A stretch of DNA of 34,543 bases from Candidatus Woesearchaeota archaeon (GCA_016784105.1 JADHVG010000010.1:1-34543); one strand, 5' to 3'; shown: positions 5,826-32,716, counted from the first letter of the stretch. The notes: generated from the sequence alone by a model not told the origin. Numbers and translations are program-made.

Positions 5826-5980
5826 TTCTGTTATAGTTTACATATTTTTACTATTGATAATCTATAAATCAATTATTTATAACATAATTCTAGTATCAAT
5901 AACATAATTTAAGCTTATTTTAATCATTTTTTACAAATTTCTAATATTCATAACAGAATTTATTGAATAAATAACAGAAA
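5826..5980 (+). repeat. Iteron-like repeats ATAACA(T/G)AA: direct copies at 5879-5888, 5899-5908, 5950-5958, 5971-5979; inverted copy TTCTGTTAT at 5826-5834
   Basis: Read directly from the intergenic sequence; the two pairs are spaced 20 and 21 bp (about two helical turns). Confidence 0.65.
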
Positions 5981-5990
5981 ACTTTATAAA
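5976..5990 (+). promoter_or_regulatory. Archaeal BRE/TATA-like promoter of cassette A (GAAAACTTTATAAAT)
   Basis: Purine-rich BRE followed by TTTATAAAT about 25-30 bp before ATG 6014, consistent with a short or absent leader; abuts the last iteron. Confidence 0.55.
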
Positions 5991-6013
5991 TCAAAATTTC
6001 AATTATAAGTTTA

Positions 6014-6289
6014 ATGCAAAAAGAGTCTCTTAATCAGTACATGATTGTTTCTTATACTCTGAAAAACATTTCTCAGAAAAAAAAGGTCAAGTTTCTTAGA
6101 AAGCTGCAAGGCTACAAAGAAAAAAAGGAAAAGAAAGAGTATTCTCATGAAGGTTTGATACAAAAGTTGAATGCCAAAAAGCTCGGAAGCAACGTTATAC
6201 TTTCTCCGATAGAAAATTTTTCAGAGATACATAACCTGTTGTCTAGTTATAACATAAAGGCTGAGGTCAAAGAAGCATGGATGAAATGA
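6014..6289 (+). CDS. Small basic protein at head of cassette A, unknown function, possible regulator
   Basis: 91-aa Lys-rich ORF directly after the TATA box; ATGA overlap with the next gene (6286-6289). Confidence 0.65.
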   Translation: MQKESLNQYMIVSYTLKNISQKKKVKFLRKLQGYKEKKEKKEYSHEGLIQKLNAKKLGSNVILSPIENFSEIHNLLSSYNIKAEVKEAWMK

Positions 6290-8547
6290 AAAAGAAATCT
6301 CAAGTGACAATATTCATAATTCTAGGTCTTATCATCTTAGTTACCGCTTCCATGTTCTTTTTTATTGATGGAGAAAGTTCTGAGGATCCTCTCAGAACAG
6401 TTCAAGAACAACAGCCTTCACAGTTTGCTGGTCAAACCGAGATAGGAAGTTATGTTGATACGTGCTTGCAGGACTCTGTCCTGCAAGGTTTGGAAATAAT
6501 GAGACTACAAGGAGGATACATCGTTATCCCGGAAGACATCAAAACACTAAAAGTAAAAGATCTAGATAACAAACAAATTAAGCTTATTGATGGGAGCCTA
6601 AAAGTTGTGATTGATGAGAATGGTCCAGGAAATTCTGTTCCTTTCTGGATCGAAAAAGACAAAGTAGCAGTTCCTTCTCCAGAACATATTGGATTGCAGC
6701 TAGATAGGTATCTTTTCTTTGAAGTAAATAAATGTTTAAATGATTTTAAGCCTTTCAAAGAACAGGGATTTCAGGTTTCTTATGGTCCTGTTGAGACTAT
6801 TGTTGAAGTTGGAAATTCTGTTATAACAACACTAAATTTACCGATAGAAGCAAAAAAAGAAGATTTAGAAATTTCTTTGAATAAGTTTGTTTTTAGTGCT
6901 CCAATCAATCTTGAAGATCTCCAAGACATTTCATATAGCATTGCAGCATATCAAAACTCTTTTGGTTTTCTGGAAGATCACACAAAAAACCTTATCTCTT
7001 TGCATTCTGGTTTAGATGCCAATAAATTACCTCCTTTTTTTAGGTCCATAATCAACACTGATTGTAATTCTATAGAGTGGAGCAAGCAGACTTCAAAAGA
7101 ACGTCTTAAGAAGATACTTGAAGAGAATGTTCCTGAAATAAGGATAGATAAGACCGATTACAATCCCATAGAGTATAAGGATCTTATGTCTAAGGGAGTT
7201 TACGAAAGTTTTATCTATGATTTTTTGAATAAGAACCAGGATAGTACTCAAGTAAGTTTTAATTACAATCCTGAATGGGGTTTTATGGAGTATGATATTT
7301 TACCTAGCAGAGGGGATGCTTTAATCCCTAACATTGTTGAAAAAGATATTCCTTTGGTCTCAAAATTCTGTGTCCTGGAATATGAAAACAAGTATACATT
7401 GAATTATCCTGTCCTTGCTAGAGTAAACAACAAAGAATCTTCAGGCATAAATATTAAGAGTTCTTCTTTGATAAAAAATGCTGGCTTTGAAATGCAGTAT
7501 TTCATGGATTCTTATATCTGTGGCAATCAGGAAAAGACCTGCAGAACAAGACCTAACGTGGAAGTTGATTTACAATCTATCTCAGAGGAATTTGATGTTG
7601 AGATAATTCCAGAGACCCAGTTCTGTGATCCTGAACAAAGAACAAGTGAGGATATTTCTTTGGAATTTTCCGATGCTTCTGATGGTTCTGGAATAGAGGG
7701 ATTAAATTTATACTATTTTTGTGGAAATTATCAAAATAATTGTTTTATTGGCAGAACCAACAATCAAGGAACTATCATAGCTAAATTTCCTCAGTGCGTG
7801 AATGGAATTTTACACGCTTCCAAAAAAAATTATAGTGGTTTAATGGAACAATTAAGCATCTATGGAGATTATGCGAAGAGCTTTAGTTACCAATTGATGC
7901 CTCTGAAAGATGTTGAGGTTTTCGTTGAGAAAATAGATGCTACTTCTCTGGTAAGAAATTATTTTGAAACTGGAAAAGTAGAGATAGAAAAATCTTCTTT
8001 GCCTCTTGAAGCAGATGAAACCGTTTTTATATCAGGTTCGGGTCCCACCAGGATAAATTATTATCATCCAAAGATTCTTTTAAGTAGATTTGAGCTTGTT
8101 CCGGGAGATTATAGTTTTGGAGTTTCTTTAAGCAAGAATACTAATCTAAAAAGCAAAGTTATTGAGGGAAAAGAATTTGGAGGGATACAAGGAAATTTTC
8201 CTATGGGGATTTTGAATTTTGATTGGGATGTTAAAGAAGTTAAAGACAAGATGTTAGTTTATGCTCTTTCAAATTATGATTTAGGTGATGGAGGCATAAG
8301 CTTTGGAGATATCAGCGATCCATTGTTGGATAGTGAAGGGAGTCTTTCCGCGGAACTTGCTTACAGGTGCGAAAAGATAGTTTTAGATAATGAAGAATCT
8401 TGTAACTTAGATAATTGTGAATTTATTAATGCTAGTGGCATACTAAAAGATGATTTTGAAAGTGATTATGAAACTTGTGAGATAGAATTCAATGTTACTA
8501 TAGCAAAAGAAGATTATATAAATTTGATTAAACCAAGGTTCATATGA
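6286..8547 (+). CDS. Cassette A pilin-like (QVTIFIILG) secreted/anchored protein, paralog 1
   Basis: ATG 6286 gives MKKKSQVTIFIILGLIILVTASMFFFI. Paralogous to 13654-15768 and 23432-25294 via YVDTCLQDSVLQGLEIMRLQGGYIVIP and CFIGRTNNQGTIIAKFPQCVNGILHASKKNYSG. Confidence 0.87.
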   Translation: MKKKSQVTIFIILGLIILVTASMFFFIDGESSEDPLRTVQEQQPSQFAGQTEIGSYVDTCLQDSVLQGLEIMRLQGGYIVIPEDIKTLKVKDLDNKQIKLIDGSLKVVIDENGPGNSVPFWIEKDKVAVPSPEHIGLQLDRYLFFEVNKCLNDFKPFKEQGFQVSYGPVETIVEVGNSVITTLNLPIEAKKEDLEISLNKFVFSAPINLEDLQDISYSIAAYQNSFGFLEDHTKNLISLHSGLDANKLPPFFRSIINTDCNSIEWSKQTSKERLKKILEENVPEIRIDKTDYNPIEYKDLMSKGVYESFIYDFLNKNQDSTQVSFNYNPEWGFMEYDILPSRGDALIPNIVEKDIPLVSKFCVLEYENKYTLNYPVLARVNNKESSGINIKSSSLIKNAGFEMQYFMDSYICGNQEKTCRTRPNVEVDLQSISEEFDVEIIPETQFCDPEQRTSEDISLEFSDASDGSGIEGLNLYYFCGNYQNNCFIGRTNNQGTIIAKFPQCVNGILHASKKNYSGLMEQLSIYGDYAKSFSYQLMPLKDVEVFVEKIDATSLVRNYFETGKVEIEKSSLPLEADETVFISGSGPTRINYYHPKILLSRFELVPGDYSFGVSLSKNTNLKSKVIEGKEFGGIQGNFPMGILNFDWDVKEVKDKMLVYALSNYDLGDGGISFGDISDPLLDSEGSLSAELAYRCEKIVLDNEESCNLDNCEFINASGILKDDFESDYETCEIEFNVTIAKEDYINLIKPRFI

Positions 8548-9506
8548 TGAGAATAAGAAAACTTAATGCAATATTTTTGATTTCTTTAGTTTTAAGCATG
8601 TTCTTGTCCTTCCCTCTAGCTTCTGCACAATCTACTTACAATACCGCTCAGAGTTGTATTGAGAAGAACAAAGAGACTAATTTCATAACAGAGACCATGG
8701 AGAATGATATAATAAAAACTCTTGAGAGTCTTGTTACTGTCTTGCATGCGGTTAATAGTATCTGGCAATCACAACTTGTTGTTATCGATTTGTTAATTGC
8801 TTCAAATTATAACAATCTTTGGGGTAGCGCTTTTGCAGCATCTTTAGAAGAATATAGGAATATTGTTGAAGAGCCCTTAGCTGGAAGTCCAGGGAAAGTA
8901 TTGAATTACATGTTGACTTGTAGTCTTCCAGCCGGAGTTCCTTCTCTTTGTAATGTCAAGCCTGAAATTTTCGGACAAAATGTTGGAGTCAGCGGTTCTG
9001 AAAGCATATACACTGCCATAGGTTGTTTATGCTTACCCCAGATATTAAAGCATATGAAAAAATTGAATACTGTTTACAAAACTTACAACTGCTGTGTGGA
9101 ACAAGCCTGTATAAATGGGATGAGCACAGTTTCTTGTGAAGAAGAACTTGATGTTTCTATGTGTATGTATCTGGGAGTTGGTGGTTTGTTTAGTGCTGTT
9201 GCAAATATGGCGCTTGATCTAGGTTTTAGTTTGTTATACACAGAATTCGTGACCGAATGGATCGAAGAACTACCCCCTTATTTTGGGACTTTATTCAGTT
9301 TAGGTAACGTTTACTTCAAGATAGAAGGGTTGCTAGGTGCTTGGGAGACCATCCAGACTGCATTTGATGAACCTAATTGTGAAGACTTAGGATTTAAGGA
9401 ATTAAATGAAGAATCTGGAAGAGGTTCAAGCGAGAATTGTAATTATGTTGAAGTTGATCTCAATGGAGACGGGATTTATGATCGTTTAGATTACGTTTGC
9501 ACATAA
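8544..9506 (+). CDS. Cassette A secreted Cys-rich protein with C-terminal Ca-binding-like motif
   Basis: Signal peptide (LNAIFLISLVLSMFLSFPLASAQS); CLCLP/NCCVEQAC/SCEEELDVSMC region; DLNGDGIYDRLDY near the C-terminus; overlaps the upstream gene at ATGA. Confidence 0.85.
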   Translation: MMRIRKLNAIFLISLVLSMFLSFPLASAQSTYNTAQSCIEKNKETNFITETMENDIIKTLESLVTVLHAVNSIWQSQLVVIDLLIASNYNNLWGSAFAASLEEYRNIVEEPLAGSPGKVLNYMLTCSLPAGVPSLCNVKPEIFGQNVGVSGSESIYTAIGCLCLPQILKHMKKLNTVYKTYNCCVEQACINGMSTVSCEEELDVSMCMYLGVGGLFSAVANMALDLGFSLLYTEFVTEWIEELPPYFGTLFSLGNVYFKIEGLLGAWETIQTAFDEPNCEDLGFKELNEESGRGSSENCNYVEVDLNGDGIYDRLDYVCT

Positions 9507-9508
9507 AA

Positions 9509-11014
9509 ATGGATTTAAGAAAAGAAAAAACGGTAATGTACCTGTACTTTTTTTCAGTTGTAGCTTTGATAGCTAGTTTTAGCTTTACTGTTGAAGGGAA
9601 TAAAATCTCTGGAGCCGCAGTCTTTGACGATCTTAAAGGTTATGTTTCTGGTTTTGATGTGTTTAGTGTTTCTTTGATCCTTTTTATCTTTCTTTCGTTG
9701 CTTGTTTTTTCTTTGTATTTCGTACATCATTCTCACAAGATAAGAAAAGATATCCATCATTCACACGTTAAGCTAATTAGTGTTTTAACAGTTCTTATTG
9801 TTTTGATTGCTTTTGTTAGTTTCCTTAATTACGATAATGAAAGTAATAGTGTTACTGGTGCCGCCACCGGATTAGAAGGAATTACCGGGTACGCTACCAA
9901 TCCCTATGAAGAAGATTCTGAATTCAAATTTTTCGGTGAAGGGGGTGTTGCTTATTTCGATTTCTTTGACCCTAGTATTAAGAATGTTGATGGTTTTAGA
10001 ATTAATTTAAGAAATGGGCAGGTTACTAAAGATGGAAAGCCTGTTTCCCTGCAAGAGACTCAAACTGCTTTGTGGAAATCTGGATATTATTTAGAGTCAG
10101 ACCAGCTGTTAATCGATCCCAGAGATGGGACAGTCTTAGAATTAGAAGTTACTGGTGAAAAAGAAGTATCTGATTTAATTTCAGGAAAGAAAAAAGTCAA
10201 AGAGTATGGCATATCTGAAAAAGAATCAAAATTAAGTTCCAAGGAAATTGTAAATGCTTGGGTTGATTCTGGTTTTATTCCTGTAATAAAAGATGAAGAC
10301 GGTAAAGAATATTTGAGATTTCCATCTTATGAAACTGATGAAGAGGGGAAGACTAAATTCGCAGGATACGAATATTATTCTAAAGAAGAATTGGAAAAAA
10401 CAGATGTAGTGACATCCAAAGAAGGCACATCCAGTCTTGATGGTGATTTAAAAATTTCTAAAAATTTAGATGGGGAGGAGTTAGCTAAATTCGAGGATTT
10501 ATCAAGGAAAAATTCTGCAAGAGATGCTATGAACCGTCAAGCAAGGCAATTTTTCAGAAACATGTTGAATATGATTCTTGGCGATGTTATTAATGAGCAG
10601 GCTGAGGCTATGTGTCGGGATGGTGAAGCATCTTCGGAGCCTTCTGAAGTTCAAGGAAGTTCTCCTCCTCCAGGTGGTTCTTCTGGTTCAAGTTCTTCTA
10701 GCTCTGGTTCTGGTAATTGTCCGAATCCTGTTACTACGCTAACTGCTCAGTCAACGAAATCTCAGGTTGGCAGTTCTTTCACTTATAGAAGTTCTTGGAC
10801 TGTTACGGCTTGCAAGCAAGATACACAGTATTCTATTTATTTAGCTAACAGCGTGAGTGATAGGCAAGAAATTGCTACGGGTTTTGCTTCTTTAGCTTCA
10901 ACAAGGTCCGCATCAAAAGTTTCTACTATAAACAGCGATTTTAATTCCATCTGTGTTTTAACGGATGATTCTTCTGTTGGAGATAGTGGTTATGTGTGTT
11001 TTGATGTTGTTTGA
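9509..11014 (+). CDS. Cassette A membrane-anchored protein with two N-terminal TM helices, TGAATG motif, Ser/Gly linker and C-terminal YRSSW/Cys domain
   Basis: VMYLYFFSVVALIASFSF and VLTVLIVLIAFVSFL helices, SVTGAATGLEGITGYA, linker SSPPPGGSSGSSSSSSGSG. ATG at 9509 preferred over 9497. Confidence 0.83.
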   Translation: MDLRKEKTVMYLYFFSVVALIASFSFTVEGNKISGAAVFDDLKGYVSGFDVFSVSLILFIFLSLLVFSLYFVHHSHKIRKDIHHSHVKLISVLTVLIVLIAFVSFLNYDNESNSVTGAATGLEGITGYATNPYEEDSEFKFFGEGGVAYFDFFDPSIKNVDGFRINLRNGQVTKDGKPVSLQETQTALWKSGYYLESDQLLIDPRDGTVLELEVTGEKEVSDLISGKKKVKEYGISEKESKLSSKEIVNAWVDSGFIPVIKDEDGKEYLRFPSYETDEEGKTKFAGYEYYSKEELEKTDVVTSKEGTSSLDGDLKISKNLDGEELAKFEDLSRKNSARDAMNRQARQFFRNMLNMILGDVINEQAEAMCRDGEASSEPSEVQGSSPPPGGSSGSSSSSSGSGNCPNPVTTLTAQSTKSQVGSSFTYRSSWTVTACKQDTQYSIYLANSVSDRQEIATGFASLASTRSASKVSTINSDFNSICVLTDDSSVGDSGYVCFDVV

Positions 11015-11523: not shown

Positions 11524-11573
11524 ATTATCACCAAGTAAGATTAGTCTTACCACCTATAAAAATGTTTCTATAA

Positions 11574-12698
11574 TCAGACAAACTCAATAAAACTTTGATT
11601 CAGTAAACTTTCGTAGAATGCAACTTCTGATATGTTTAGTTTTGATAACTGCTTCAAACTATCACAACTTTGACGAAGATATTGATTCGTTACCTTGTTA
11701 CAAACTGAATAATCCTTTTTGTCTATGACAAAGTTCATGTAACAGCTATCCTTGCGAGAATCTTTGCTTATTTGTTCGCAGATTGCGCTGTTAGTCGTTT
11801 GTTTTGCTATGTTGCTTAAGCAAACATCTTTTGTCCTTTCATCTGCTATTCTTATGCAGTATGATCTGTCTCCTGTTTGCTCTGCTATTTTGTTGAAACA
11901 TAGGTCCTTAGAAGTTTGTAGCTGTAAGCTTAAGCATATCTTTTCTGCTTCTAATCTATTTTGTTTTGCTACATTCTCAACTTTCTCTAATGCCTCAAAT
12001 GTATTTAGGGCAGCATCTCCAGAACTTTCCCTTTCTTCTTCCTCTTCCTCAGGAACCTCTTCAACAACCTCTGGTATCTCTTCCAGAGCTTCTTCTATGG
12101 GTTCTTTTGTTTCCTCAGCAACTTTGGAGGCTGCTTCGATGTTAACTGGTAAGGTTGCTATGGCTCTTTGGCCAGAATATCGTGCTATCGCTCGCACCAT
12201 GTGATTTCCCGCAGCGGTTTCCGGAACCATAATCTTTATGGTCTTGGATCCTTTTGTTTCTATTGCTCGTGTCTCTTCTTTGAAAGTTACAACTTGATTG
12301 CTTTCTAAATTTATGAGTTCATATTTTAATTCTACATCATACCTATCCGCACTACCAAGGTTATCAATTTCTGATATGAAAGATATCTCGTTTCCTGCTT
12401 CAATTTCTGTCTTTAGTGATTCTAAATTTAGATCAAGTAATTGTGCGGGTTCTTTAGAAATGTTCATGAAGAAGAAAACAGAGACAATAACTGTGATGAA
12501 CACAACAGAAACTCCTATCCATGTTGCTGGAGAAAAATGTATGACATGATCCACTTGTGGACTATAAACTTTCCTTAAAGCCTGATCAACATCTTGTGGG
12601 TTGTATCCATAACGAACCAGAGCAGTTCTTAATTCTTGAGTGTTATACCCTTTTTGGATTTGCTGTCTTATATAGTTAACAAGCTTTTTGTCTGGCAT
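11574..12698 (-). CDS. Membrane-anchored protein with N-terminal UBA-like helical domain, one TM, CARDB-like extracellular domain and Cys-containing C-terminal repeats
   Basis: LVNYIRQQIQKGYNTQELRTALVRYGYNPQDVDQALRKVY; TM IGVSVVFITVIVSVFFFM; beta-rich CARDB-like region; repeated ICLSLQLQTSKDLCFNKIAEQTGDRSYCIRI-type units. Confidence 0.82.
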   Translation of the reverse strand: MPDKKLVNYIRQQIQKGYNTQELRTALVRYGYNPQDVDQALRKVYSPQVDHVIHFSPATWIGVSVVFITVIVSVFFFMNISKEPAQLLDLNLESLKTEIEAGNEISFISEIDNLGSADRYDVELKYELINLESNQVVTFKEETRAIETKGSKTIKIMVPETAAGNHMVRAIARYSGQRAIATLPVNIEAASKVAEETKEPIEEALEEIPEVVEEVPEEEEEERESSGDAALNTFEALEKVENVAKQNRLEAEKICLSLQLQTSKDLCFNKIAEQTGDRSYCIRIADERTKDVCLSNIAKQTTNSAICEQISKDSRKDSCYMNFVIDKKDYSVCNKVTNQYLRQSCDSLKQLSKLNISEVAFYESLLNQSFIEFV

Positions 12699-12783
12699 AT
12701 GAAAAGATTGGTCCGTATTATGTATTTAAACTTTGTCAACCTATGGGAAAATATTATATTTAATTCTTCATTCCTTCAAGATT

Positions 12784-13298: not shown

Positions 13299-13378
13299 TT
13301 TATACTTTATTTATCCATTATTTTGTATAAATAATACTTAATTTATTCTTTATTTATACTAAATTTTGTATAAATAAT
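13298..13378 (+). repeat. Operator-like half-sites: ATTTATAC at 13298-13305 and 13352-13359; GTATAAAT at 13325-13332 and 13368-13375; 15-bp direct repeat TTTTGTATAAATAAT at 13321-13335 and 13364-13378
   Basis: Exact matches read from sequence; 13352-13375 is a perfect 8-bp inverted repeat with an 8-bp spacer. Confidence 0.7.
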
Positions 13379-13481
13379 TATAAACAATAGACTTTCTAAT
13401 GAAAATATTTATATATTAGTATACAAATAAATAACAAAAAAAGACAAAATTTAGCATAAATCGTGCACAATTAAAGCTAAA

Positions 13482-13652
13482 ATGGTTAATAATAGCATAC
13501 AAGTACGCATAACAATTTCTAAAGAAATCAATGATTTACTTGAAAGAGCAGCCAAAAAACTAGGCAAGAAAAAATCCATGTTAGCACGAGAATTAATGGA
13601 ACAAAAACTGTATGACTTAAACTTAATCCAAAAAGAACTCAAAGAATTGTAA
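13482..13652 (+). CDS. Ribbon-helix-helix (CopG/Arc-like) DNA-binding protein, 56 aa, head of cassette B
   Basis: MVNNSIQVRITISKEINDLLERAAKKLGKKKSMLARELMEQKLYDLNLIQKELKEL*; beta strand SIQVRITIS then two helices typical of RHH. Below the ORF-track length cutoff. Confidence 0.85.
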   Translation: MVNNSIQVRITISKEINDLLERAAKKLGKKKSMLARELMEQKLYDLNLIQKELKEL

Positions 13653-13653
13653 G

Positions 13654-15768
13654 ATGAAAAAAAGAGGGCAAGCATCTATATTTATTATATTAGGGTTGAT
13701 ACTAGTTATGGGAGCAGCATTATTTTTTTATACAGATTTAAACAAGAACAAGGAAGAGATAGCTCCGGGAGTCTTTGTTGCAGTAAATGATATCCCTCAA
13801 GAACTTAATCCAGTGAAAAATTTTGTTACACAATGTCTTGAGGATACTTCCTCCAACGCTTTAAAGCTTCTTGGACAGAACGGAGGATATATAGATCTTG
13901 ACAGTTCTTATTCCGGGAAAAATTTCAATATCGATAATGGTGCAACCGAAAGTGACATAGTATCTTTCACCGAGGAAAGCAACCTTAAGATACCTTACTG
14001 GTGGTACATGAACTCTCCCAACACCTGCAAGAATTGCAAGTTCACAAGTAATAGACCAGACCTAAGAGACGGTTCTTATTCAATAGAAGCCCAGCTCAGC
14101 AAGCATATAGAGCAAGAACTAAGTTCATGTCTTGGTGACTTTGAAAGCCTAAAACAACTGGGTTTCGAGATAAAAGAAAAAAGCAAGATAAAAGTTTCTT
14201 CAAAAGTTACAGAAGAGGATGTCATCTTTATTCTTGATTATGATCTTGAGTTCAAGAAAGGTGATACGACCTCCTCTTTAGATCAGTTTTTTGTGAGAGT
14301 TCCTATAAGCTTGCAGAAGATCTACAATCTCGCCACGGACATCATGAATATGCAACAGGAATTTAGGTTCCTTGAAAGACAAGTCCTAAACTTAATAGCT
14401 TCTTTCTCGTCCATAGATAGCAACAAATTACCCCCCATGTCTGATATGAGTTTTGAGTTCGGAAGCACAACTTCCTGGTCAAAGCAAGATGTACAAAACA
14501 ACCTCCAAGGCATTCTTGAAAGTTATGTTCCTTTGCTGAAAGTTGACAGTACAAAAAATTTCAACAGAGAATTTTACAGTTCTTCTTTGAAGCAAAGGCT
14601 CCATGACAGCATGATAATTCCGATAACTGACAGTTCTTATAATAACTTACAAGCCACCTTCTCTTATCTCGATTTCTGGCCCCCATATTTCGACATGAAT
14701 TGTAAAGGAGATATATGTCAACCAGAATCCGTTTCCTCTGACCTACTATCAGTTATTGGGATCCAAAGATACAATTTTTTTTATGACCTTTCATATCCCG
14801 TTTTAGTCAACATTTTCGAAGAAGATGCTTTGAACGGACGAGGGTACGAATTCAACTTATTCCTGGAATCTAATATCCGGAATAATAACGAACTCAGAAC
14901 AGGTTTTGCCCCATTAGAAGTTTCTTCAATAGAACTTGGTTCAGGACTTTGTGACCTTGGAAACAGGAACAGTAAACCAGTAACCATAACCACAAAAGAC
15001 AAATCATCCTCAACTCCGCTTGGTAATGTAAACATTGTCTTTAATGTCGCAGGAGAAAGTTGCTATATTGGTTCTACTTCCGATAACGGAACCCTTATCT
15101 CTAAGTTCCCAGCGGGAACAGTTGGTGGAACAATCAGCTTTATGCATGAAGATTATCTTTCAGAAAGCAAACTTTTCGATGCAAGTCTTACTGATGAAAA
15201 AATCATAGAGGAAAAACTTGAACCTATAGCTGATAAAAGCATCGAGATCAAGAAAAAACTTCTTGAAAAAGTTGGTAACGAATGGGTTTTTACAAATAAG
15301 GTCGAATCTTTAAGGAGCAACGAAGAGGCATTCATAACCTTAACAAGAATAAGCTCTCTTGAAGAGGATGATTTTAGTGCTGCTGCGAACATCCAAGGAA
15401 CTTCAAAAGAGCTTATACAGATTGTTCCTGGAAAATACACTCTCAATGTAAACATGTTCTTACGAGAAAACCTAAAAATTCCTGAACGAAAAGTTAAGAA
15501 AAGAACCGGACTTTTTGAAGAAGAAGAATTTGACATTCCAGGAACCGAATTCAATGAGAACAACCCTTTCCCTTCTGGAGGGGTAAACATCAACATAACA
15601 ATAACTAAACAGGATCTTGAAAAAAATGTTATAACAGTTTTTGCCTTGAGTCCTGCTTTGTATGATGTCCCGGAAAACTTGAGAGAATTAGAGGACTTAC
15701 AACAATCAGCAAACGTACATGATTATTCAAAGGTTTTTGAAGCTTTGTTAAAACCGGTTTTCCAATAA
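13654..15768 (+). CDS. Cassette B pilin-like (QASIFIILG) secreted/anchored protein, paralog 2
   Basis: MKKRGQASIFIILGLILVMGAALFFYTDL; NFVTQCLEDTSSNALKLLGQNGGYIDL; IPYWWY; CYIGSTSDNGTLISKFPAG. Confidence 0.88.
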   Translation: MKKRGQASIFIILGLILVMGAALFFYTDLNKNKEEIAPGVFVAVNDIPQELNPVKNFVTQCLEDTSSNALKLLGQNGGYIDLDSSYSGKNFNIDNGATESDIVSFTEESNLKIPYWWYMNSPNTCKNCKFTSNRPDLRDGSYSIEAQLSKHIEQELSSCLGDFESLKQLGFEIKEKSKIKVSSKVTEEDVIFILDYDLEFKKGDTTSSLDQFFVRVPISLQKIYNLATDIMNMQQEFRFLERQVLNLIASFSSIDSNKLPPMSDMSFEFGSTTSWSKQDVQNNLQGILESYVPLLKVDSTKNFNREFYSSSLKQRLHDSMIIPITDSSYNNLQATFSYLDFWPPYFDMNCKGDICQPESVSSDLLSVIGIQRYNFFYDLSYPVLVNIFEEDALNGRGYEFNLFLESNIRNNNELRTGFAPLEVSSIELGSGLCDLGNRNSKPVTITTKDKSSSTPLGNVNIVFNVAGESCYIGSTSDNGTLISKFPAGTVGGTISFMHEDYLSESKLFDASLTDEKIIEEKLEPIADKSIEIKKKLLEKVGNEWVFTNKVESLRSNEEAFITLTRISSLEEDDFSAAANIQGTSKELIQIVPGKYTLNVNMFLRENLKIPERKVKKRTGLFEEEEFDIPGTEFNENNPFPSGGVNINITITKQDLEKNVITVFALSPALYDVPENLRELEDLQQSANVHDYSKVFEALLKPVFQ

Positions 15769-23268: not shown

Positions 23269-23418
23269 ATGAAGTTTACAAAAAAAGTGATGAAGACTTC
23301 TGGAGGGATTGTAGTTAGGGTTCCTGCAGATATTTGCAAACTTCTTAATTTAACGGAAAAAGATTATGTTGAGATAGATTTGCAAAAAATAAATTTGAAA
23401 GAATTAAGTAAAAAATAA
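23269..23418 (+). CDS. Small AbrB/SpoVT-like DNA-binding protein, 49 aa, head of cassette C
   Basis: MKFTKKVMKTSGGIVVRVPADICKLLNLTEKDYVEIDLQKINLKELSKK*: GGIVVRVPADICKLLNLTEKDYVEI matches the AbrB hairpin pattern. Below the ORF-track cutoff. Confidence 0.78.
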   Translation: MKFTKKVMKTSGGIVVRVPADICKLLNLTEKDYVEIDLQKINLKELSKK

Positions 23419-23431: not shown

Positions 23432-25294
23432 ATGTTTACAAAAAAAAGAGGTCAGGCATCTATTTTCATGGTATTCGCAATTGTAATCCTATTGGCAGGA
23501 TCATTTTATTTTTACACTCAAAAAATTTCATTAAAAGAAATTACTATCATAGATTCGGAAGCCGCTCCTGTCAAAAATTTCGTGGAAGAATGCATAAGTA
23601 ATGTCGCAAAACAAGGCTTAACTATCCTTGGAGCTAATGGTGGTTACATAACCTTCCCTGAAGAGATAGAACGTAACAAGAACTCTTATCTGCAAACAGG
23701 ACCAATAAGCAGCATAAAGAATCCTTATTGGTGGCATGATGGCATAGAAACAATACCTGGAGAAACTTTCATGATAAGCCAGATAGAATCTTATGTAAAA
23801 GAAAACTTAAACAGTTGTGTAAATAATTTCGCAGCCTTTACCAACAAGTTTGATGTTAAGGAACTCTCTGACTTGGAAGTAGATGTATCTTTGAATGAAA
23901 ATGATGTTACTGTTGATGTTTCCTGGAAATTAGATTTAATAAATAAGCTTAACAGCACAACCCTAAAACTAGAAAGCTTCAAAGAAATAGTGCCTATAAG
24001 ATTAAAAAAGATCTATCAGGCAGCAAGAGATATTTATGAAGCTGAAAAGAGAGATTTCTTCTTGGAATTTAAGACCATAGATCTCATAACCTTAGATGAG
24101 TCCATTCCCACAACCGATCTTGAAGCAACGTGCACCGAAAGAACATGGAATCAGGATGTTATTGAAAGCAAACTGAAAAGGCTTTTAGCGATTAATTTGC
24201 CGTACATTAATGTTCTGGGTACTGATTTTGATGATAACATTTACGTTCCTAATCCTTTTGGAGAGGACACTTACAAATCATCTTACTATAACCAGCATTA
24301 CAAGTGGCAAGTAAAAGATAAGAGTTATGATAATCTAAAAGTTTCTATTGATTACGATGAGAAGTGGCCTTTCGAATTTACAGCCCGTCCAAGCAGTAAT
24401 GGCATCTTAAAATCTAACGCGCAAAAAGGGCAAAATCTTCTTGGATTTTTATGCTTGCACATCTGGCATTTTACTTACGATGCTGTTTTCCCAGTAAAGA
24501 TAACGATAACCGATCCTGATTCAGAACAATTCCTATTTTCTTATGCTTTGAAAACCAGCGTAGATCATAATCAACCTAAGCGTGAAAACTTTGCATCAAC
24601 AATTTTTGAGCAACAAGACGTGATAAGCAACGAGGAATATTGCAATGATGTTGTGGACATAACAACCATTTCCACTCTCAGCAACTCCACAACCGAAGAA
24701 GCGATTGATGATGTTGAATTAAGTTTTACTTGCGGTATCTTCACTTGCGACATGGGTAAAAGCGAATGGGCAAGTTTTGGTGCTTCTGCTGAGTTAAGTA
24801 AACCGTTCCCTTACTGTGTGAATGGTATCTTAAGAGCAAATAAAGAAGGTTTTGAAGAATCTCAAATGTTTATAAATACGGAAGGGACAAGAGATTATAC
24901 TATTTACTTAAAACCAACAAAAACCTTTGAGAGCTATGAAATAGTAAAACATGAGGTGGATGATTTATCTATAACTAACAAGATGCAGGAAGATGAAATA
25001 GCTTCTATAACGCTTACCTCAACCACAAACGAGTTTGAAAGCTTCGGTATTATTCCAAGTGAAGACTTTCCTTTAAAGCTTCTTGACCAAGATCAGGAAT
25101 ATGACCTTACCATCCACTTGTCAGATAAAGAAAATGTTAAGGGCATGTACAAAACTGTATGGAAAGTTAAAAAATCAGAATTACAAGGTTCAAATAAAAT
25201 AATTTTCCATATTGTAGAAAGTGGCAACTCAGAATCATTATCAGAGAACATAGAACAATACTCGAACGAACTTCCAAAACCGGTAATAATATGA
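23432..25294 (+). CDS. Cassette C pilin-like (QASIFMVFA) secreted/anchored protein, paralog 3
   Basis: MFTKKRGQASIFMVFAIVILLAGSFYFYT; NFVEECISNVAKQGLTILGANGGYITFPEE; NPYWWHD; PFPYCVNGILRANKEGFEES. Confidence 0.88.
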   Translation: MFTKKRGQASIFMVFAIVILLAGSFYFYTQKISLKEITIIDSEAAPVKNFVEECISNVAKQGLTILGANGGYITFPEEIERNKNSYLQTGPISSIKNPYWWHDGIETIPGETFMISQIESYVKENLNSCVNNFAAFTNKFDVKELSDLEVDVSLNENDVTVDVSWKLDLINKLNSTTLKLESFKEIVPIRLKKIYQAARDIYEAEKRDFFLEFKTIDLITLDESIPTTDLEATCTERTWNQDVIESKLKRLLAINLPYINVLGTDFDDNIYVPNPFGEDTYKSSYYNQHYKWQVKDKSYDNLKVSIDYDEKWPFEFTARPSSNGILKSNAQKGQNLLGFLCLHIWHFTYDAVFPVKITITDPDSEQFLFSYALKTSVDHNQPKRENFASTIFEQQDVISNEEYCNDVVDITTISTLSNSTTEEAIDDVELSFTCGIFTCDMGKSEWASFGASAELSKPFPYCVNGILRANKEGFEESQMFINTEGTRDYTIYLKPTKTFESYEIVKHEVDDLSITNKMQEDEIASITLTSTTNEFESFGIIPSEDFPLKLLDQDQEYDLTIHLSDKENVKGMYKTVWKVKKSELQGSNKIIFHIVESGNSESLSENIEQYSNELPKPVII

Positions 25295-28200
25295 TAAAAG
25301 GAAAAAATAAAGGAGTAGTATTTTTATTAGCTCTTCTGGTATTTACTTTACTGATCAATACTGCTTTTGCTATCAGCATAAGCAACGTAGAGATAAAGAG
25401 CATAACATCAAGTTCTGCAAGAATAACTTGGGATACAGATGTGGTTGCAGATGGTAAGGTTCGGTACGGAAAAACCAATGCTTTAGGTCTAACTTCCAGG
25501 CACAATACATACATTTTCGAACATGACCAGGTACTACAAGGTCTTGAATCCGGAAAGACTTATCTTTTTAAGATTGAGTCAGAGGACATAAATACTAATT
25601 TAGTTACTGATGATAATTCCGGTCAGCTTTATTCTTTCCAGACAAAAGACATCAGTCCTCCTCAAAAAATCAACAATCTTGCTCTTAATAGTAAAAGTAA
25701 AACTTCAATAAGCCTTGAATGGCAAGCTTCTCAAACAGATGACCTCGATCATTATAACGTTTATAGGAATCATGAAAAAATACTGGAAGTTTCTACCGCT
25801 AGCTTTACGGATGAATCCCTACAAACTGGAACTGCTTACTCTTACAAAGTTTCTGCTGTTGATTTTTCTGAGAATGAGGGCCAACAGTCTGATACGTTGA
25901 TAGTTACAACAGAACACCTGGACATAACCTCTCCGGATATCTCTGAACTGAAAGTTGAGAGTACTGGAAGCACTTCCGCTGCTATTTCCTGGACCACTGA
26001 TGAAGAAAGCACTTCTATAGTTTATCTTGGGACAGACTTAAACTTAAGCGATAAAAGAGGTTCAAGTAATCTTGTAACAACACATTCCATCAGTTTTGAG
26101 GGGCTTATTAACAATGTTAAATATTATTTTGTTGCAAGTTCTTGCGATAAAGAAAATAATTGCAAAAATTCTTCTTTAGTTAATTTTAATTCTGAAAACT
26201 CTCAAGGTCCTTCATTAAACGCTTCAATACCCAAGTTTTACAACAAAGGAAGCATTGACATTTACGGTATAACCGATCCTTTCTCTTCAATAAAACTTTA
26301 TGTTAATAATCTTAACATTCCGATAAGGGCTCTTGATGGTTCTGAGGTTTCTGAAGGAACCTTTAGATTCAGACAGGTGCAACTTCAAAAAGAGAATGTT
26401 ATCAAAATTGTTGCTACTGGAATTTCTGGAAGCAAAACTGAGAAGATTTATCGGGTTAGTGTTGATACTGAAGACCCTATTTTGATAATTGATGGCCTTC
26501 CAGGAATAACTTCTTCCAAGAATCTGACGATTGTAGGTACAGTAAATGAGCCAGTTACCATAAACTTTTTCCTGAGATTTGGAAGCAAGCAAGCCCCTGA
26601 CAAGATTGAAGGAATTTCTGCTATTACCAAGAACAGTTCAATAAAGTTAGAGTGGAATGAGACTAGTGAAGAAGATTTCTCTCATTACATAATCTATAGG
26701 AAAGATGTAGGTCCTATCGCAATAACCGACCAAAAATCCTACAACACCTATACAGATATTCTAGTAAATAAAAATGTAGAATATTCTTATAGGGTTAGTG
26801 TTGTTGACAAGTTCGGTAAAGAAAGTACATTATCGGAAGCTGCTGTAACATCTACTTCTTCTGGATTAGAAAACATAGAAAAGCCTTCTCCAATAGACAA
26901 ACTCATAATTGAAAAGCCTACTGAAATTTTAGAAACAAATTCTTCTTTCTCTCAATCTTTGAGAATAGGAAAAGACGGAACTTACACTTTGCTGATCGAA
27001 GTTTTAGATCGTGCATCCAATAGGTTAGTTATAGAAAAAACAATAGATGCTGACACTAAAAAACCTCCAATAGATATTATTTCTCCAAAATCAGGAACTT
27101 TCATTTATGAAAACTATGCTAATGAGATGGACATCAAAGGAATAACTGAACCCAATGCAAAAGTTTATTTGTACGTGGAAAGAACTCCTTTTGGTTCTTT
27201 AGATAAGAATTTTGACATATCTGGGCTTCCTAACCGTCTTGAAAACATTGATGATTCTAAGCTCGATGCGAAGTGCAGGTTAAAGATAGCTGGTTCTAAT
27301 TATTGTAATGAAGCTGCAGATTATGTTACAACTGCCGATGGTGCTGGAAACTTTGAGTTTGAAGATGTGGATTTAACAAGTTTCCTTAGCGGAGGTATAG
27401 GTATTAAAGAAGTTTCTGGTTCAGAATTAGGTAATGAAAGAAGATTAGATAAAAGTAAGTCTGCAAGCATGATCTTTATAGCAAGAGACCAGGCTGGAAT
27501 CTACAATGCAAAAAAACATGAAACCAGAATAGGAACTTGCTGGTCTGGAAACCAGAGTTGGGATCTTATTCCTTTAGCACAATATCAAAGTCCAACCCTA
27601 ATAAGTCCACAACGTCTTGCAGACAACAAAGAGAACATTTACTTTTACTTTAATTATTCTTATATTGGTAGAGGGAATGATGAAAAAGTTGATTCGGTTT
27701 CCATAAGCCGTGCTTGTGATGGCCTAGAAACTTTAGGAGAAAAACGTTTCAACACAAGTTGCCAAATACTTCCTTCAGGTGGTTTCTCAACAGCAGTAAA
27801 TCCGGATGGTAAAGTTACCTATACCCAGATAAAACTTAACCGGGCAGAGGGCATGGAACAATTTTTGGCAGAAGACTGGAAGTCTTTTGCAAACTCGGTT
27901 AGTAATGAACTTACTTTTCCGATGAAATTTACTATCAGGTATACTCATAAAGTGGATGGTAAAGACGTTCGTGAAACTCAAACAACGTGCCAGGAAGTTA
28001 GTTATGTTTTGGATAATAGCATAATTGATCCTAGATCTTACATGCCTGACTGGTTGTTATATGATGTGGTTGATTTTCTTCAAAATTCCATTAAGACAAT
28101 TGATAAGGTGAATAACGAACTCACAAAAGTATTGCAATTTGCAACTGTAGGCTGTGTTTCCAGTGGTTTGTTAAGAACTTCTTTTCAAATAATTAGAAGG

Positions 28201-31200
28201 TTCGACACTTTCTTAGAGGAAAAAAAGTTTTTGTTAAAAAATGCTGTTAAATTAACAGGATTAGATTTACTTAAATTTGATGTAAAAACAGAAGAAGACC
28301 AACAATATTGTAATGATGTTTCTAAAGCGATATTAGAATCCCAAGGTATTCCTAACAAAGCCGATGCTCCCAACATACTAAAAGGCTTAAAGCTAAAATA
28401 CTTTAGCAACCAAGACCTTGAAAGATGTTTCCCAAGTGTTGCATCTGTTTGGGAAACAGAAGCTGACTTGTACAAATTCTATAGATTCACTTGTGACCGT
28501 GTTTTTGGTCATCAAACACCTTCAGAATGGACTGAGAATCTAAAGGACGAAGACATATTCCAAAAACTTGGAGAAGGACAAACCTGTCAAACAGACCAGA
28601 GTGTATTTGGTCAGGCCTTGAGAGCTGAAAAGTGTGAGATTGTTGCCGGGAGCTTTGATAGAAATGTCAAAAATTTAGAGGGTAAGACTTGTTTCGTTAG
28701 GCCAGTATCCGGTGGAAAAGAGCTTTATGTTCTTGGAAGTCCTGTTCAGGGTACTGATAAATTGTATGAATTGGAAGCTCTTAAGACTTCTGGAAGAGCT
28801 ACTGAAACAGGTTATGCCATAAAAGTAACTGAAAACAATTTCCTTACAAGCCAGCCCACAACCTGCGAACAGGTTTGTACTGGGGGTTCAAAAGGAAAAA
28901 CCTCAGAAAATCTTATTTTCGATGGAACAACAATACCTTTAGTTGATAAAAAAGGATCTAAAGATAACAAGATAGGATATACTTGCACAACTTCTAATAC
29001 CTGCCAGTCTTGGGGGCAGAACAAAGAAGTGGACTATGGTGGTAAAAAAATAAAGATAGAATCTACCGCAAACAAAGGTTACACTTCTGATTGTTTCCCT
29101 CCAAAAACGGAAACTTCTACGATCAGTGATAGTCCTTCTCAAAGAGTGGAATGTTGCTGCTTGAACACACAAGGAGATTCCACCCCTCAGACATATTACG
29201 TGTTTGATGACTTAAACAAGTATGTAAGTCCACAGTATGCTGCTCCTGATGGAACTTCTCAAGATTCTGGACAGCAACCTGCTTTTTATAGAATTAACGA
29301 AAAAGGAGATAGAATAGAAGGGACTCCTGAAAAGTACGATGAAGTAGAATGGAGTTATAGATATTGGAAAGAACGTTATCAGACTGAAGCTAATGATGCT
29401 AAAAAGCATTTTGAGTACAATCCTAATAGGTATATAGAGGGTAGAGATTTTGCTGCGTGTTTTGGTCAGAATAACTGGCTTTACGATGGGGCTACTGTTC
29501 CTGAAGGTGAGACTGGAGAATTAGTTATGATTGATTCTAGGCAACAACATACCAGTGCCTTCCAATGTGCAAACATAGGCGGAATGCAAAACAGGTTAAC
29601 CATGCTCAACAATATTCAAGGAGCTTTATCTAATTGTTTAATAGATATCCGAGAAACCGGTACATCAGATGCTGCTGCTTGTAAAGAATTCTTTACTAGA
29701 TATGTTTGCTCAACCGTTTGGCAATTCATCGATTTTTTCTCTAATCAGTGCTCTCCGTTCTCATCCTCTTTAGACGAACTTGGTGATGATGACTATGCGG
29801 CTACTGTGGGGGCTGGATTTAAAAGCATAACTGAAAGTCTAGCAGATACACAATCGGAATTAGCTTCCGAATATGGGAATGCAGAACTGAACAATTTGTT
29901 AGGAAGTGGTGCGGGAGGTATAGCACGAAAGGTCTGTTTAGCAGCATTTGGTTATGATTGGGACTTTACCTTACAAAGTGTTCTTGATGCTGCTTATTCT
30001 CAAAGCTTTGAAAGTTTAGTGCAGAAAACTACTGGAACTAGAGAGTATCTTACCGTCGACCCTACAAACGCGCAGGCAAAATATGAATATCGTGCCTCAT
30101 GGATAATAAATCCTGGATGTGATATAGACAGTTATACTGCTGATTTATCATGTGTTGGAAGGGATGAAATAGACGGAGGAGGTTCTTTAGGATTTACTGA
30201 TCCTTTAAGCAACATAGGCATAGCTTCTCGCGGAATTAGATGCGATGCTGTTGGAAGTCCAGATGGTAACAATTGTGATTGTGCAGGTCTTGACAGTGAG
30301 AAGACAAAGAGGTTCTTTAGTTCTGGAAAAATATCCCAAAACAAGTTAGTTCAAGAATCCCATGATGAAATTGTTACATCTAACTATAGATATGATCATC
30401 TAAAACTTACTTTAAGAGCAGACAGAAAGCTTAGAGGAAATTTAAAAAATTCTTGCTTCCCTCCAGGACACGAAGATGGTGTGTTCTATTTTCCTTTAAC
30501 TGATAAAACTGCCAGAGACATCATCTCTTGTTCCGTTGATCCTCTCTCTGGAATTTTCCAATGCCCGGGAGCTTCTAACTTCTGGAGCAAGAAAGGTCTG
30601 GCAAGGATTGAAGATTTAAAGGTTAATAATCAGGATATTGTGTCAAACAAAATTACTATCTTCAAAGGAGATGATATTACTTTGACTCCAACAGTTTTTA
30701 AGACAGATGAGTCTCCAGATAAATGTTTGATTGCTCAACTAACAAAGCAAGGAGCTAAGTCCAGTCCTAAATATGAAACAATTAATATAAATGGGATCCA
30801 TAAATATCCACCTATGGTTTTAGATGAGAATATTCAGCCTGTACAAAATGCAAAAAGTATTCCTAAATCTTTGTTTGAAGGTTGTGAACCCTCTGGAACA
30901 TGCAAAAAAGATATGGAAAGAAGAATTCCTACATTAAGAGTTATAGAGCGAGATAACGCTGAAAATGTTGAATTAGAAATTAAATTTATTGACAGTAATA
31001 CTGATGGGATAAGTTTAAGTGAAGACAGTACTGATAAACTGGAAATAAGGTTCAATAACAGACCACCTCAAGAAAAAGTTCTTGGAAATGACGATGGAGC
31101 TGGTTGGTATGATATAGATGAAAAAGCTCCGGTCATTTCTTTGGATGCTTCTGGTGTAAGATTAAAAATAACTAAAGCTCCTTTGTTTGCAAAAGGAATA

Positions 31201-31866
31201 ATTTCATCAACTTATTCGTTGAATATTCCTTCAGTTACTGAATCTGAAACCGATAATATTTGGTATCTTAATCTTGGATTGTATGAAGCTGGAGAGAACG
31301 GACAATGCAGTAGGTATAATGCTGGAGAACTCATAACTTATCAAGGTTCAAAACAGGAAAGAAAAATAAGGTTGGATGTAAAGGCCTCAGCAGAAAAAGC
31401 TAATGCTCCTAAAATAACTTTAAGCTTTAAAGATAACAAAGATGAAGTAAAAAATGATCAAAATGTGATACTAAATATAGGTGTTGTTGATGAAAACCGA
31501 TTAAGGAAAAAATTGGATCTCTACATAGCCTCTCCAGATGGTCCAAAATCTAATTGGGATGGTTCTGGTGTTGAATGTAATGATTTAGAAAGAACTGTTG
31601 ATGGAGGAGAGAAGCTATCGTGCAGTGTAAAGATAACTAAAGATATTTTAGCTAAAATTCCTCCCGGAAAAGCAGGAGCTTTCAAGATTGGTGTTGAGGC
31701 TTGGGATCTTGATGATAATGCCAACAAAGCAGAAGAAGATATTTCTTTAGAATTGTGGTGTGGAGAAAATAGGAAGGAAGGATTGTGCTTAAATTCCTGT
31801 GATCCAAGAGATACAATAAATGAAGGGCTGCAATGTGGTCAGGGATTAACCTGCTGTGAAAGATAA
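25291..31866 (+). CDS. Cassette C giant (2191 aa) secreted protein with FN3 repeats and Cys-rich C-terminal half
   Basis: Signal peptide GVVFLLALLVFTLLINTAFAIS; about four FN3-like repeats (e.g. SSSARITWDTDVVADGKVRYGKT, KTSISLEWQASQTDDLDHYNVYRN, SAAISWTTDEESTSIVYLG, SSIKLEWNETSEEDFSHYIIYRK); many Cys; ATGA overlap with the upstream gene. Confidence 0.88.
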   Translation: MIKGKNKGVVFLLALLVFTLLINTAFAISISNVEIKSITSSSARITWDTDVVADGKVRYGKTNALGLTSRHNTYIFEHDQVLQGLESGKTYLFKIESEDINTNLVTDDNSGQLYSFQTKDISPPQKINNLALNSKSKTSISLEWQASQTDDLDHYNVYRNHEKILEVSTASFTDESLQTGTAYSYKVSAVDFSENEGQQSDTLIVTTEHLDITSPDISELKVESTGSTSAAISWTTDEESTSIVYLGTDLNLSDKRGSSNLVTTHSISFEGLINNVKYYFVASSCDKENNCKNSSLVNFNSENSQGPSLNASIPKFYNKGSIDIYGITDPFSSIKLYVNNLNIPIRALDGSEVSEGTFRFRQVQLQKENVIKIVATGISGSKTEKIYRVSVDTEDPILIIDGLPGITSSKNLTIVGTVNEPVTINFFLRFGSKQAPDKIEGISAITKNSSIKLEWNETSEEDFSHYIIYRKDVGPIAITDQKSYNTYTDILVNKNVEYSYRVSVVDKFGKESTLSEAAVTSTSSGLENIEKPSPIDKLIIEKPTEILETNSSFSQSLRIGKDGTYTLLIEVLDRASNRLVIEKTIDADTKKPPIDIISPKSGTFIYENYANEMDIKGITEPNAKVYLYVERTPFGSLDKNFDISGLPNRLENIDDSKLDAKCRLKIAGSNYCNEAADYVTTADGAGNFEFEDVDLTSFLSGGIGIKEVSGSELGNERRLDKSKSASMIFIARDQAGIYNAKKHETRIGTCWSGNQSWDLIPLAQYQSPTLISPQRLADNKENIYFYFNYSYIGRGNDEKVDSVSISRACDGLETLGEKRFNTSCQILPSGGFSTAVNPDGKVTYTQIKLNRAEGMEQFLAEDWKSFANSVSNELTFPMKFTIRYTHKVDGKDVRETQTTCQEVSYVLDNSIIDPRSYMPDWLLYDVVDFLQNSIKTIDKVNNELTKVLQFATVGCVSSGLLRTSFQIIRRFDTFLEEKKFLLKNAVKLTGLDLLKFDVKTEEDQQYCNDVSKAILESQGIPNKADAPNILKGLKLKYFSNQDLERCFPSVASVWETEADLYKFYRFTCDRVFGHQTPSEWTENLKDEDIFQKLGEGQTCQTDQSVFGQALRAEKCEIVAGSFDRNVKNLEGKTCFVRPVSGGKELYVLGSPVQGTDKLYELEALKTSGRATETGYAIKVTENNFLTSQPTTCEQVCTGGSKGKTSENLIFDGTTIPLVDKKGSKDNKIGYTCTTSNTCQSWGQNKEVDYGGKKIKIESTANKGYTSDCFPPKTETSTISDSPSQRVECCCLNTQGDSTPQTYYVFDDLNKYVSPQYAAPDGTSQDSGQQPAFYRINEKGDRIEGTPEKYDEVEWSYRYWKERYQTEANDAKKHFEYNPNRYIEGRDFAACFGQNNWLYDGATVPEGETGELVMIDSRQQHTSAFQCANIGGMQNRLTMLNNIQGALSNCLIDIRETGTSDAAACKEFFTRYVCSTVWQFIDFFSNQCSPFSSSLDELGDDDYAATVGAGFKSITESLADTQSELASEYGNAELNNLLGSGAGGIARKVCLAAFGYDWDFTLQSVLDAAYSQSFESLVQKTTGTREYLTVDPTNAQAKYEYRASWIINPGCDIDSYTADLSCVGRDEIDGGGSLGFTDPLSNIGIASRGIRCDAVGSPDGNNCDCAGLDSEKTKRFFSSGKISQNKLVQESHDEIVTSNYRYDHLKLTLRADRKLRGNLKNSCFPPGHEDGVFYFPLTDKTARDIISCSVDPLSGIFQCPGASNFWSKKGLARIEDLKVNNQDIVSNKITIFKGDDITLTPTVFKTDESPDKCLIAQLTKQGAKSSPKYETININGIHKYPPMVLDENIQPVQNAKSIPKSLFEGCEPSGTCKKDMERRIPTLRVIERDNAENVELEIKFIDSNTDGISLSEDSTDKLEIRFNNRPPQEKVLGNDDGAGWYDIDEKAPVISLDASGVRLKITKAPLFAKGIISSTYSLNIPSVTESETDNIWYLNLGLYEAGENGQCSRYNAGELITYQGSKQERKIRLDVKASAEKANAPKITLSFKDNKDEVKNDQNVILNIGVVDENRLRKKLDLYIASPDGPKSNWDGSGVECNDLERTVDGGEKLSCSVKITKDILAKIPPGKAGAFKIGVEAWDLDDNANKAEEDISLELWCGENRKEGLCLNSCDPRDTINEGLQCGQGLTCCER

Positions 31867-31867
31867 A

Positions 31868-32716
31868 ATGAATTCTACTATCGTTAATTTAAAAAGTTCT
31901 TTTTCGATTATTAAGAACAATAAAATAATATTTTTACTGCTTTTTTTCTTGCAATTAATTCTTTTGATTTCTTTAACGTTCCTAGGTTCTTATTACAGTA
32001 TCATTATCTTGAGCAGTTCTAAAGACATAATAGAATACATGGAATCTATTAATTCTAATCTTGAAAGGGCTAAAGTTGAGATCTTGCAGGAAAAGATTCC
32101 TCTAGGAAACAATCCTGAGATGATATCTCAAAATTATGAAGTGATATTACATAACATCCTAAAATTATTCTTGTTTGCTTTCCTAATTTTTACTTTGCTA
32201 AATGGGTTAGTGTGGTTTTTAATTTCTAATATGGTTAAGAAAACAAAAAAAGGTTTCTCAGCAAAAAATATTCTATCTTTTGTTTTGAAATTTGCAATTG
32301 TTGGTTTAATTTTATTCCTATTGTCTTATTTTTTAATATCGAATTTAATGAAAATTGTTTTTAATGCATTCCTTGAGACTGATCCTTTGAGCTTCATTCC
32401 GTTATTTGTATTATCTTTAATATTGTTTTACTTTGTGTACGTTTCCATTCCCTTAATAAATAATATAAAATTAGATAAAAAAGGAATCAAACGTTTTGTG
32501 AAAGAAGTATTTTCTATTGGAACAAAAAAATTCGTTCCAGTAATAACTTCCTACTTAATAATTATTTTTTCAGTAATTTTATCTTCTTATCTTGTTTTTT
32601 ATTTTTTAGAATTAAATTTAGTGTTGTTATTACTAAGTTTATTGTTATTAGTAGAAATTCTTATCTGGACAAAAATCTATTTTTATATTGTAATAAATAA
32701 TTTAAACGGCTTCTGA
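31868..32716 (+). CDS. Multi-TM membrane protein of cassette C
   Basis: Several hydrophobic segments; paralogous to 22373-23125. ATG at 31868 lies just after the upstream stop; the track start at 31856 is a GTG inside the previous gene. Confidence 0.8.
   Translation: MNSTIVNLKSSFSIIKNNKIIFLLLFFLQLILLISLTFLGSYYSIIILSSSKDIIEYMESINSNLERAKVEILQEKIPLGNNPEMISQNYEVILHNILKLFLFAFLIFTLLNGLVWFLISNMVKKTKKGFSAKNILSFVLKFAIVGLILFLLSYFLISNLMKIVFNAFLETDPLSFIPLFVLSLILFYFVYVSIPLINNIKLDKKGIKRFVKEVFSIGTKKFVPVITSYLIIIFSVILSSYLVFYFLELNLVLLLLSLLLLVEILIWTKIYFYIVINNLNGF

Follow-up and report, generated by a model that had tools for sequence, protein, structure and literature searches.

A conserved three-gene operon in Nanobdellota, found in three diverged copies on a woesearchaeal contig, may encode a surface-display apparatus

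Results and discussion

Three cassettes of surface-protein genes on one contig

The window analysed here is a contig of 34,543 nt (JADHVG010000010.1:1-34543, assembly GCA_016784105.1) from a woesearchaeal draft genome of DPANN archaea (phylum Nanobdellota; 1.19 Mb, 83% complete). Between positions 5,826 and 32,716 it carries three tandem cassettes, A, B and C (Table 1), which are diverged copies of one ancient operon. In the order of transcription, this operon encodes an ectodomain protein with a class III (prepilin-type) signal peptide, here called X2 (A2, B2, C2), a Cys-rich secreted protein, X3 (A3, B3, C3), and a multi-spanning membrane protein, X5 (B5, C4). All 13 open reading frames (ORFs) of the cassettes were called on the plus strand, with the positions, order and tight packing described in an earlier note on this DNA. 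Consecutive genes are separated by -13, -4 and -10 nt in cassette A (A1/A2, A2/A3, A3/A4), by +1, +10, +3 and +36 nt in cassette B (B1/B2, B2/B3, B3/B4, B4/B5) and by +13, -4 and -11 nt in cassette C (C1/C2, C2/C3, C3/C4), while A and B lie 2467 nt apart and B and C 143 nt. Alternative starts are possible for A4 (ATG 9509 for TTG 9497) and C4 (ATG 31868 for GTG 31856). A2, B2, C2 and B5 belong to no family in Pfam, NCBIfam or PHROGs, and Rfam and tRNA scans gave no matches.

Table 1 Genes and other features of the cassettes and their surroundings, in positions of the window
Feature	Position	Strand	Basis or remark
A1, 91-aa basic protein, head of cassette A	6014..6289	+	kept upstream of A2 in L063, L064
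A2, X2-family ectodomain protein, 756 aa, class III signal KKS/QVTIF, 14 Cys	6277..8547	+	own clade, support 99
A3, Sec-secreted, 320 aa, 13 Cys	8544..9506	+	X3-family C-terminal Cys domain without Ig repeats
A4, 505 aa (501 from ATG 9509), three N-terminal membrane segments and outside domain	9497..11014	+	orthologues in L063, L064
374-aa membrane protein, helical N-terminus, Cys-rich tail	11574..12698	-	neighbour in 24 other loci
Candidate promoter/operator of B1: TATA-like TTTATATA, TTAGNMTA half-sites at -66, -31	13380..13481	+	half-site enrichment
B1, 56-aa ribbon-helix-helix (RHH)-like protein, head of cassette B	13482..13652	+	conservation over ~23 loci; RHH by motif
B2, X2-family ectodomain protein, 704 aa, class III signal	13654..15768	+	AlphaFold2 model, Foldseek, signal
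B3, X3-family: Sec signal, Ig-like repeats, C-terminal helical Cys domain, 27 Cys	15779..18949	+	Pfam Big_3_3 8e-7, alignments, phylum survey
B4, 1127-aa variable partner, secreted or N-terminally anchored	18953..22336	+	orthologue in G009/L072 with SLT domain
B5, X5-family multi-spanning membrane protein, 250 aa	22373..23125	+	C4 paralogue; homologues in other orders
C1, 49-aa AbrB/MazE-like head of cassette C	23269..23418	+	Pfam MazE E 0.0037, below cut-off
C2, X2-family ectodomain protein, 620 aa, class III signal, 8 Cys	23432..25294	+	one clade, support 95
C3, X3-family giant: Sec signal, FN3/Ig modules, Cys domain near 1410-1480, 50 Cys	25291..31866	+	fn3 1.4e-14
C4, X5-family multi-spanning membrane protein, 286 aa	31856..32716	+	hhalign to B5 E 3e-18

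Homology of the cassettes

The earlier note had made its reading depend on the homology of three proteins that it called pilin-like, and A2, B2 and C2 are indeed homologous both by BLAST (E 1e-44 and 2e-32) and by hhalign (B2-C2 E 1e-90, A2-B2 6e-75, A2-C2 9e-65). Their downstream partners had been expected to be homologous as well, and this holds for most of them: A3 aligns with the Cys domain at the C-terminus of B3 (hhalign E 2e-13), B3 and C3 share Ig repeats (E 1e-10; 3e-18 with larger profiles), and B5 and C4 are paralogues. A4 and B4, with a faint N-terminal match (hhalign probability 20%), appear at most weakly related. Both had been described as anchored; membrane segments were found at their N-termini, but no C-terminal anchor. 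A TGAxTGLExxTG-like motif lies just outside the membrane segment in A4 (~115-135) and in B4 (~32-48), and may serve both proteins for anchoring or sorting. No mutual relatedness was detected by hhalign among A1, B1 and C1, and cassette A has no clear X5. In each of A, B and C an X2 with a class III signal is directly followed by a Cys-rich secreted X3, and B5 and C4 are the multi-spanning X5 proteins nearby.

Spread and age of the operon

The X2-X3-X5 gene set is previously undescribed and is found across most of the phylum. X2 family members occurred in 55 of the 59 genomes of a survey of relatives, and a larger X2 profile matched 283 of 371 Nanobdellota genomes at E<=1e-40; in the phylum survey, strong matches to B3 were confined to the order Woesearchaeales. 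Where X2 did not lie at a contig edge, X3 followed in 75 of 80 cases, with a median spacing of -4, i.e. an ATGA overlap. The five exceptions comprise four in which X2 is succeeded by X5 or the second X2, three of them having the B-type X3 on the upstream side, and one (L119) in which the X3 frame appears to be broken. The longer order B2-B3-(B4)-B5-C2-C3-(C4) is recurrent in many families of Woesearchaeales, often beside metG. In 13 genomes of other orders exactly one full-length X2 (615-707 aa) was found, in most of them directly followed by one giant Cys-rich protein of 1216-2562 aa, and in five of these genomes a membrane protein of the B5/C4 type was recognised behind the pair. The idea of a modular, duplicated surface apparatus whose gene order recurs elsewhere is upheld by these counts, which extend to other orders of the class; such recurrence was the support that the earlier note had asked for.

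A tree of 79 X2 sequences places the C2 and A2 proteins in separate clades, with A2 closer to C2 than to B2. The cassette copies are therefore old and co-existing. Cassette A was seen, among the loci examined, only in the window, L063, L064 and L086. Absence is patterned too: whole families have neither full-length X2 nor B3, and a B3 match below 1e-20 was obtained in just one (G089) of the 18 listed Woesearchaeales genomes that lack full-length X2, so that X2 and B3 tend to occur and vanish together.

X2 has a prepilin-type N-terminus but not the fold of a pilin

The N-termini of 69 X2 proteins have K or R at -2 (S in one), G, A or S at -1 and Q at +1, followed by a hydrophobic helix, which is the layout of a class III signal peptide. 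Position +5 of the mature protein is F in 65, Y in three and S in one of them, and the glutamate of archaeal pilins was not found there. X2 proteins measure 620-760 aa, rather than being small proteins with a pilin-type head. An AlphaFold2 model of B2 from 55 sequences reached a pLDDT (predicted local distance difference test) of 88. With Foldseek, only its C-terminal part found matches, to CnaB/transthyretin-like structures (8bdw, TMt 0.61; 5aq0, TMt 0.77), and its N-domain (~45-430) had no match in PDB. Shorter X2 paralogues of 250-300 aa share this N-domain. By reading, no LPXTG-type C-terminal sorting signal was seen in A2, B2 or C2. The term pilin-like therefore holds for the signal peptide but not for the fold.

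The source genome encodes further proteins with the X2 N-domain (G000 contigs C39, C50, C62 and C63; loci L009-L012). On C63 the domain is part of a frame of 2108 aa; an 875-aa protein containing 50 Cys is encoded ahead of it, and small proteins with pilin-type signals come after it. A short X2-like protein together with a secreted protein bearing an SLT (lytic transglycosylase) domain forms a small parallel cassette upstream of B (L066 4710-6101; G012:C5:172763-174313).

Processing of X2 by an A24 prepilin peptidase is plausible, and this peptidase is encoded in 24 of 25 X2-positive genomes tested. It is also encoded in 16 of 18 X2-negative genomes; co-loss with X2 was thus not seen, and the distribution of the peptidase neither helps nor hurts. 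One could go further and place X2 in a type IV pilus-like filament, as its tip base or as a giant minor pilin, the tip adhesin being X3. The class III signal and the A24 peptidases fit this, the source genome also carries T2SSE and T2SSF, the distance between a T2SSE gene and the cassette is 5-7 kb in L081, L093, L095, L103 and G038, and comparable islands in DPANN genomes have been interpreted as diverged pilin loci (Makarova 2019, PMC6393860). Five drafts that are 96-100% complete (G053, G058, G066, G073 and G078), however, contain X2 while their sole candidate assembly ATPase is a distant type of ~770 aa that is common to nearly all genomes. As these genomes keep X2 without a pilus-type ATPase, a pilus motor does not seem to be needed, and linkage to an ATPase was rejected as proof of a pilus. 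Together with F in place of E at +5, a fold that is not that of a pilin, and the lack of ATPase linkage in most loci, this makes a filament unlikely. The pilus-like apparatus proposed in the earlier note is accordingly weakened, its class III signal being the part that stands.

X3 combines a conserved Cys domain with variable modules

Besides a Sec signal, B3 and C3 have modules of the Ig or FN3 type and a Cys domain, whose approximate pattern is C..G....L...R.I....CL....G....C......Y.C. It is exactly at this domain that X3 proteins from other orders match C3 (97%, E 4e-10) and B3 (93%, E 3e-7) in hhalign. X3 lengths overall are very unequal. Four of 12 other-order X3 proteins contain peptidoglycan hydrolase domains, namely SLT in L111 and L112, SLT plus Amidase_3 in L115 and M23 in L114 (SLT 1e-22 and 1e-14, Amidase_3 2e-41, M23 2e-17), and the catalytic ES...GL motif is present in all three SLT-bearing proteins. 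Within the family of the window, the protein in the B4 slot of G009/L072 has an SLT domain with an intact ESG...GLGQ, and those of L068 and L074 match an SLT profile built here from the other cases. Foldseek matches of the B3 C-terminal model to Fsx1 and invasin were discarded as noise, the helical part being poorly modelled.

These domains bear on the possibility that X2, X3 and X5 simply form the normal wall or a surface-layer (S-layer)-like coat, of which B and C would be two components, with no direct role in attack. A near-universal X2 that is single and full-length in other orders, an Ig-rich and Cys-rich secreted protein with an anchor, and losses that are few and clustered in certain families would all suit an envelope. 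Murein hydrolases, on the other hand, make little sense in the coat of a murein-free archaeon, and to our knowledge archaea have no murein. A coat is also hard to reconcile with families that lack full-length X2 and B3 altogether and with such unequal X3 lengths, and we therefore consider this explanation rather doubtful, if worth keeping in mind.

Alternatively, X5 could be a translocation or assembly factor of an export system in which X2 and X3 carry toxic modules into other cells. Conservation of X5 homologues with X2-X3 and the variable payload of X3 and B4 are in line with this, but X3 has an ordinary Sec signal and the operon contains no known secretion component, which leaves an export system a far-fetched option.

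Head genes and regulation

According to the earlier note, each cassette is under its own regulator, possibly allowing alternative expression of surface types. Own regulation is supported for cassette B, possible for C and unsupported for A. B1 lies ahead of B2 in ~23 loci and is far more conserved than B2 (mean pairwise identity of 81% among 12, vs 36%); its assignment to RHH proteins comes from a motif, with no significant Pfam match. In 20 B1 upstream regions 30 TTAGNMTA half-sites were counted, compared with 4.1 +/- 2.1 in shuffles, but as the motif was picked after viewing the sequences, which are related to each other, the operator is a lead. Such half-sites are absent upstream of A1 and C1 in the window. 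The AbrB-like C1 is limited to the family of the window, and A1, which is similar to the C-terminal half of an NTP_transf_2 (nucleotidyltransferase-domain) protein of 196 aa in a relative, is not an obvious regulator. L111 and L112, from another order, have yet another kind of head gene, a small winged-helix-like ORF that overlaps X2 or is fused ahead of it.

If A, B and C were expressed under different conditions, each through its own small regulator, head genes would be expected to differ, as they do, and a candidate RHH operator before B only would be in keeping with this. Yet across Woesearchaeales both B and C are kept, as a pair with constant order, the C2 and A2 clades are old and separate, several clades lack B1 or C1 entirely, and A1 is not recognisably DNA-binding. 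A search for invertible or recombining repeats yielded none that were convincing, and switching by repeats was rejected; the hallmarks of phase-variable cassettes are likewise missing, with no strong long repeats and with a gene order conserved among relatives. Alternative expression of surface types is thus very improbable.

Neighbouring genes

The 374-aa membrane protein encoded between A and B is a conserved neighbour, mostly at 0.4-1 kb from X2 in the other loci, usually divergent from B. The same gap contains, on the minus strand (11015-11553), genes for a ParE-type toxin (1.4e-7) and a MazE-type antitoxin (2e-5), which are missing or different at the corresponding spot in L063 and L064. 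Further upstream (2747-3835, plus strand), a 362-aa protein with repeated helix-turn-helix motifs and a LAGLIDADG endonuclease-like part overlaps the start of metG by 4 nt; none was seen ahead of metG in L043 or L045.

A proposed surface apparatus for contact with neighbouring cells

We infer that the operon encodes an apparatus that displays proteins at the surface and serves contact with neighbouring cells, which are most likely bacteria, as well as, in some lineages, local attack on their walls; we give this reading a probability of roughly 0.5. X2 would be inserted in the membrane via its class III N-terminus, exposing a large Cys-containing ectodomain, and would hold X3, a giant Sec-secreted Cys-rich protein, at the surface. 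X5 may assemble or anchor the X2-X3 pair or help to export it. The conserved Cys domain of X3 would serve as docking or structural part and the remainder as variable payload, probably for binding in the case of the Ig and FN3 repeats of the window, and for cutting of bacterial walls in the case of the lytic transglycosylase, amidase and M23 domains of relatives. Rather than being switched, the apparatus would be a standing part of the surface, with B and C as two co-existing versions. Giant Cys-rich outside proteins across most of the phylum, some of them with wall-cutting enzymes in relatives, make this gene set a strong candidate machinery for contact with other cells.

Several observations weigh against this interpretation. 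Among the 12 other-order X3 proteins only four have hydrolase domains, none were found in the proteins of the window itself, where Pfam recognises no SLT domain in B3, B4 or C3, and no SLT match was obtained in the source genome at its 83% completeness. The X3 Cys domain was poorly modelled (pLDDT 68) and had no PDB match, Foldseek with the B3 C-terminal model giving none at E<=1e-3. Binding of X3 by X2 is suggested by gene order only, and near-universality would be equally in keeping with a structural part in the envelope.

Little is known about how DPANN archaea recognise partner cells and what they do to them, and the majority of their surface genes lack annotation. Here, a three-gene unit that extends over most of a phylum can be tested part by part, through its signal peptide, the predicted fold, the motif of the Cys domain and the payload domains. 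With it, giant proteins that cut walls are tied to genes for membrane partners, action on bacteria is predicted for at least some lineages, and the view of such loci as pili or as switchable surface variants is corrected. Perhaps, as a more tentative extension, most Nanobdellota possess a previously unrecognised surface machine that depends on neither pili, S-layers nor known secretion systems. It would display giant adhesins and bacterial-wall hydrolases that are interchangeable, and would be the common contact apparatus of these symbionts, many of whose partners would be bacteria.

Comparison with known systems

With archaeal type IV pili and other class III proteins (Makarova 2016, PMC4858521), X2 shares the class III signal, the hydrophobic helix and an A24 peptidase in the genome, but it differs by F at +5, its length, its CnaB/transthyretin domains and the apparent absence of a required assembly ATPase. 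The dark-matter islands of DPANN genomes (PMC6393860) are similar in encoding unannotated secreted DPANN proteins, near FlaI/TadC in some genomes, whereas most loci described here do not adjoin FlaI/TadC and have X2-X3-X5 as their unit. NEQ255 of N. equitans, a secreted protein near a secretion component (Makarova 2019, PMC6393860), is a possible relative. CnaB/transthyretin-like domains as in B2 are also known from surface proteins and pilins of Gram-positive bacteria; in contrast to these, B2 has no C-terminal LPXTG, is N-terminally anchored and has an unmatched N-domain.

Archaeal peptidoglycan hydrolases that kill bacteria, prominent in Nanoarchaeota, have been reported (PLoS Biol 2025, PMC12352652). 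They resemble the hydrolase-bearing proteins found here as archaeal wall-cutting enzymes, although the accessible part of that report describes no multi-gene display apparatus. A further counterpart is fam00969, giant murein-transglycosylase proteins in Pacearchaeota and Woesearchaeota (Castelle 2021, PMC8204110), a kind of enzyme that Vigneron et al. 2022 interpret as predatory. The sections of PMC8204110 at hand describe no operon, partner genes or Cys domain for this family, and B3 and C3 of the window differ from it in being without SLT. A size of up to 3000 aa, the lineages and the SLT domain agree with the other-order X3 proteins of L111, L112 and L115, and X3 probably includes fam00969.

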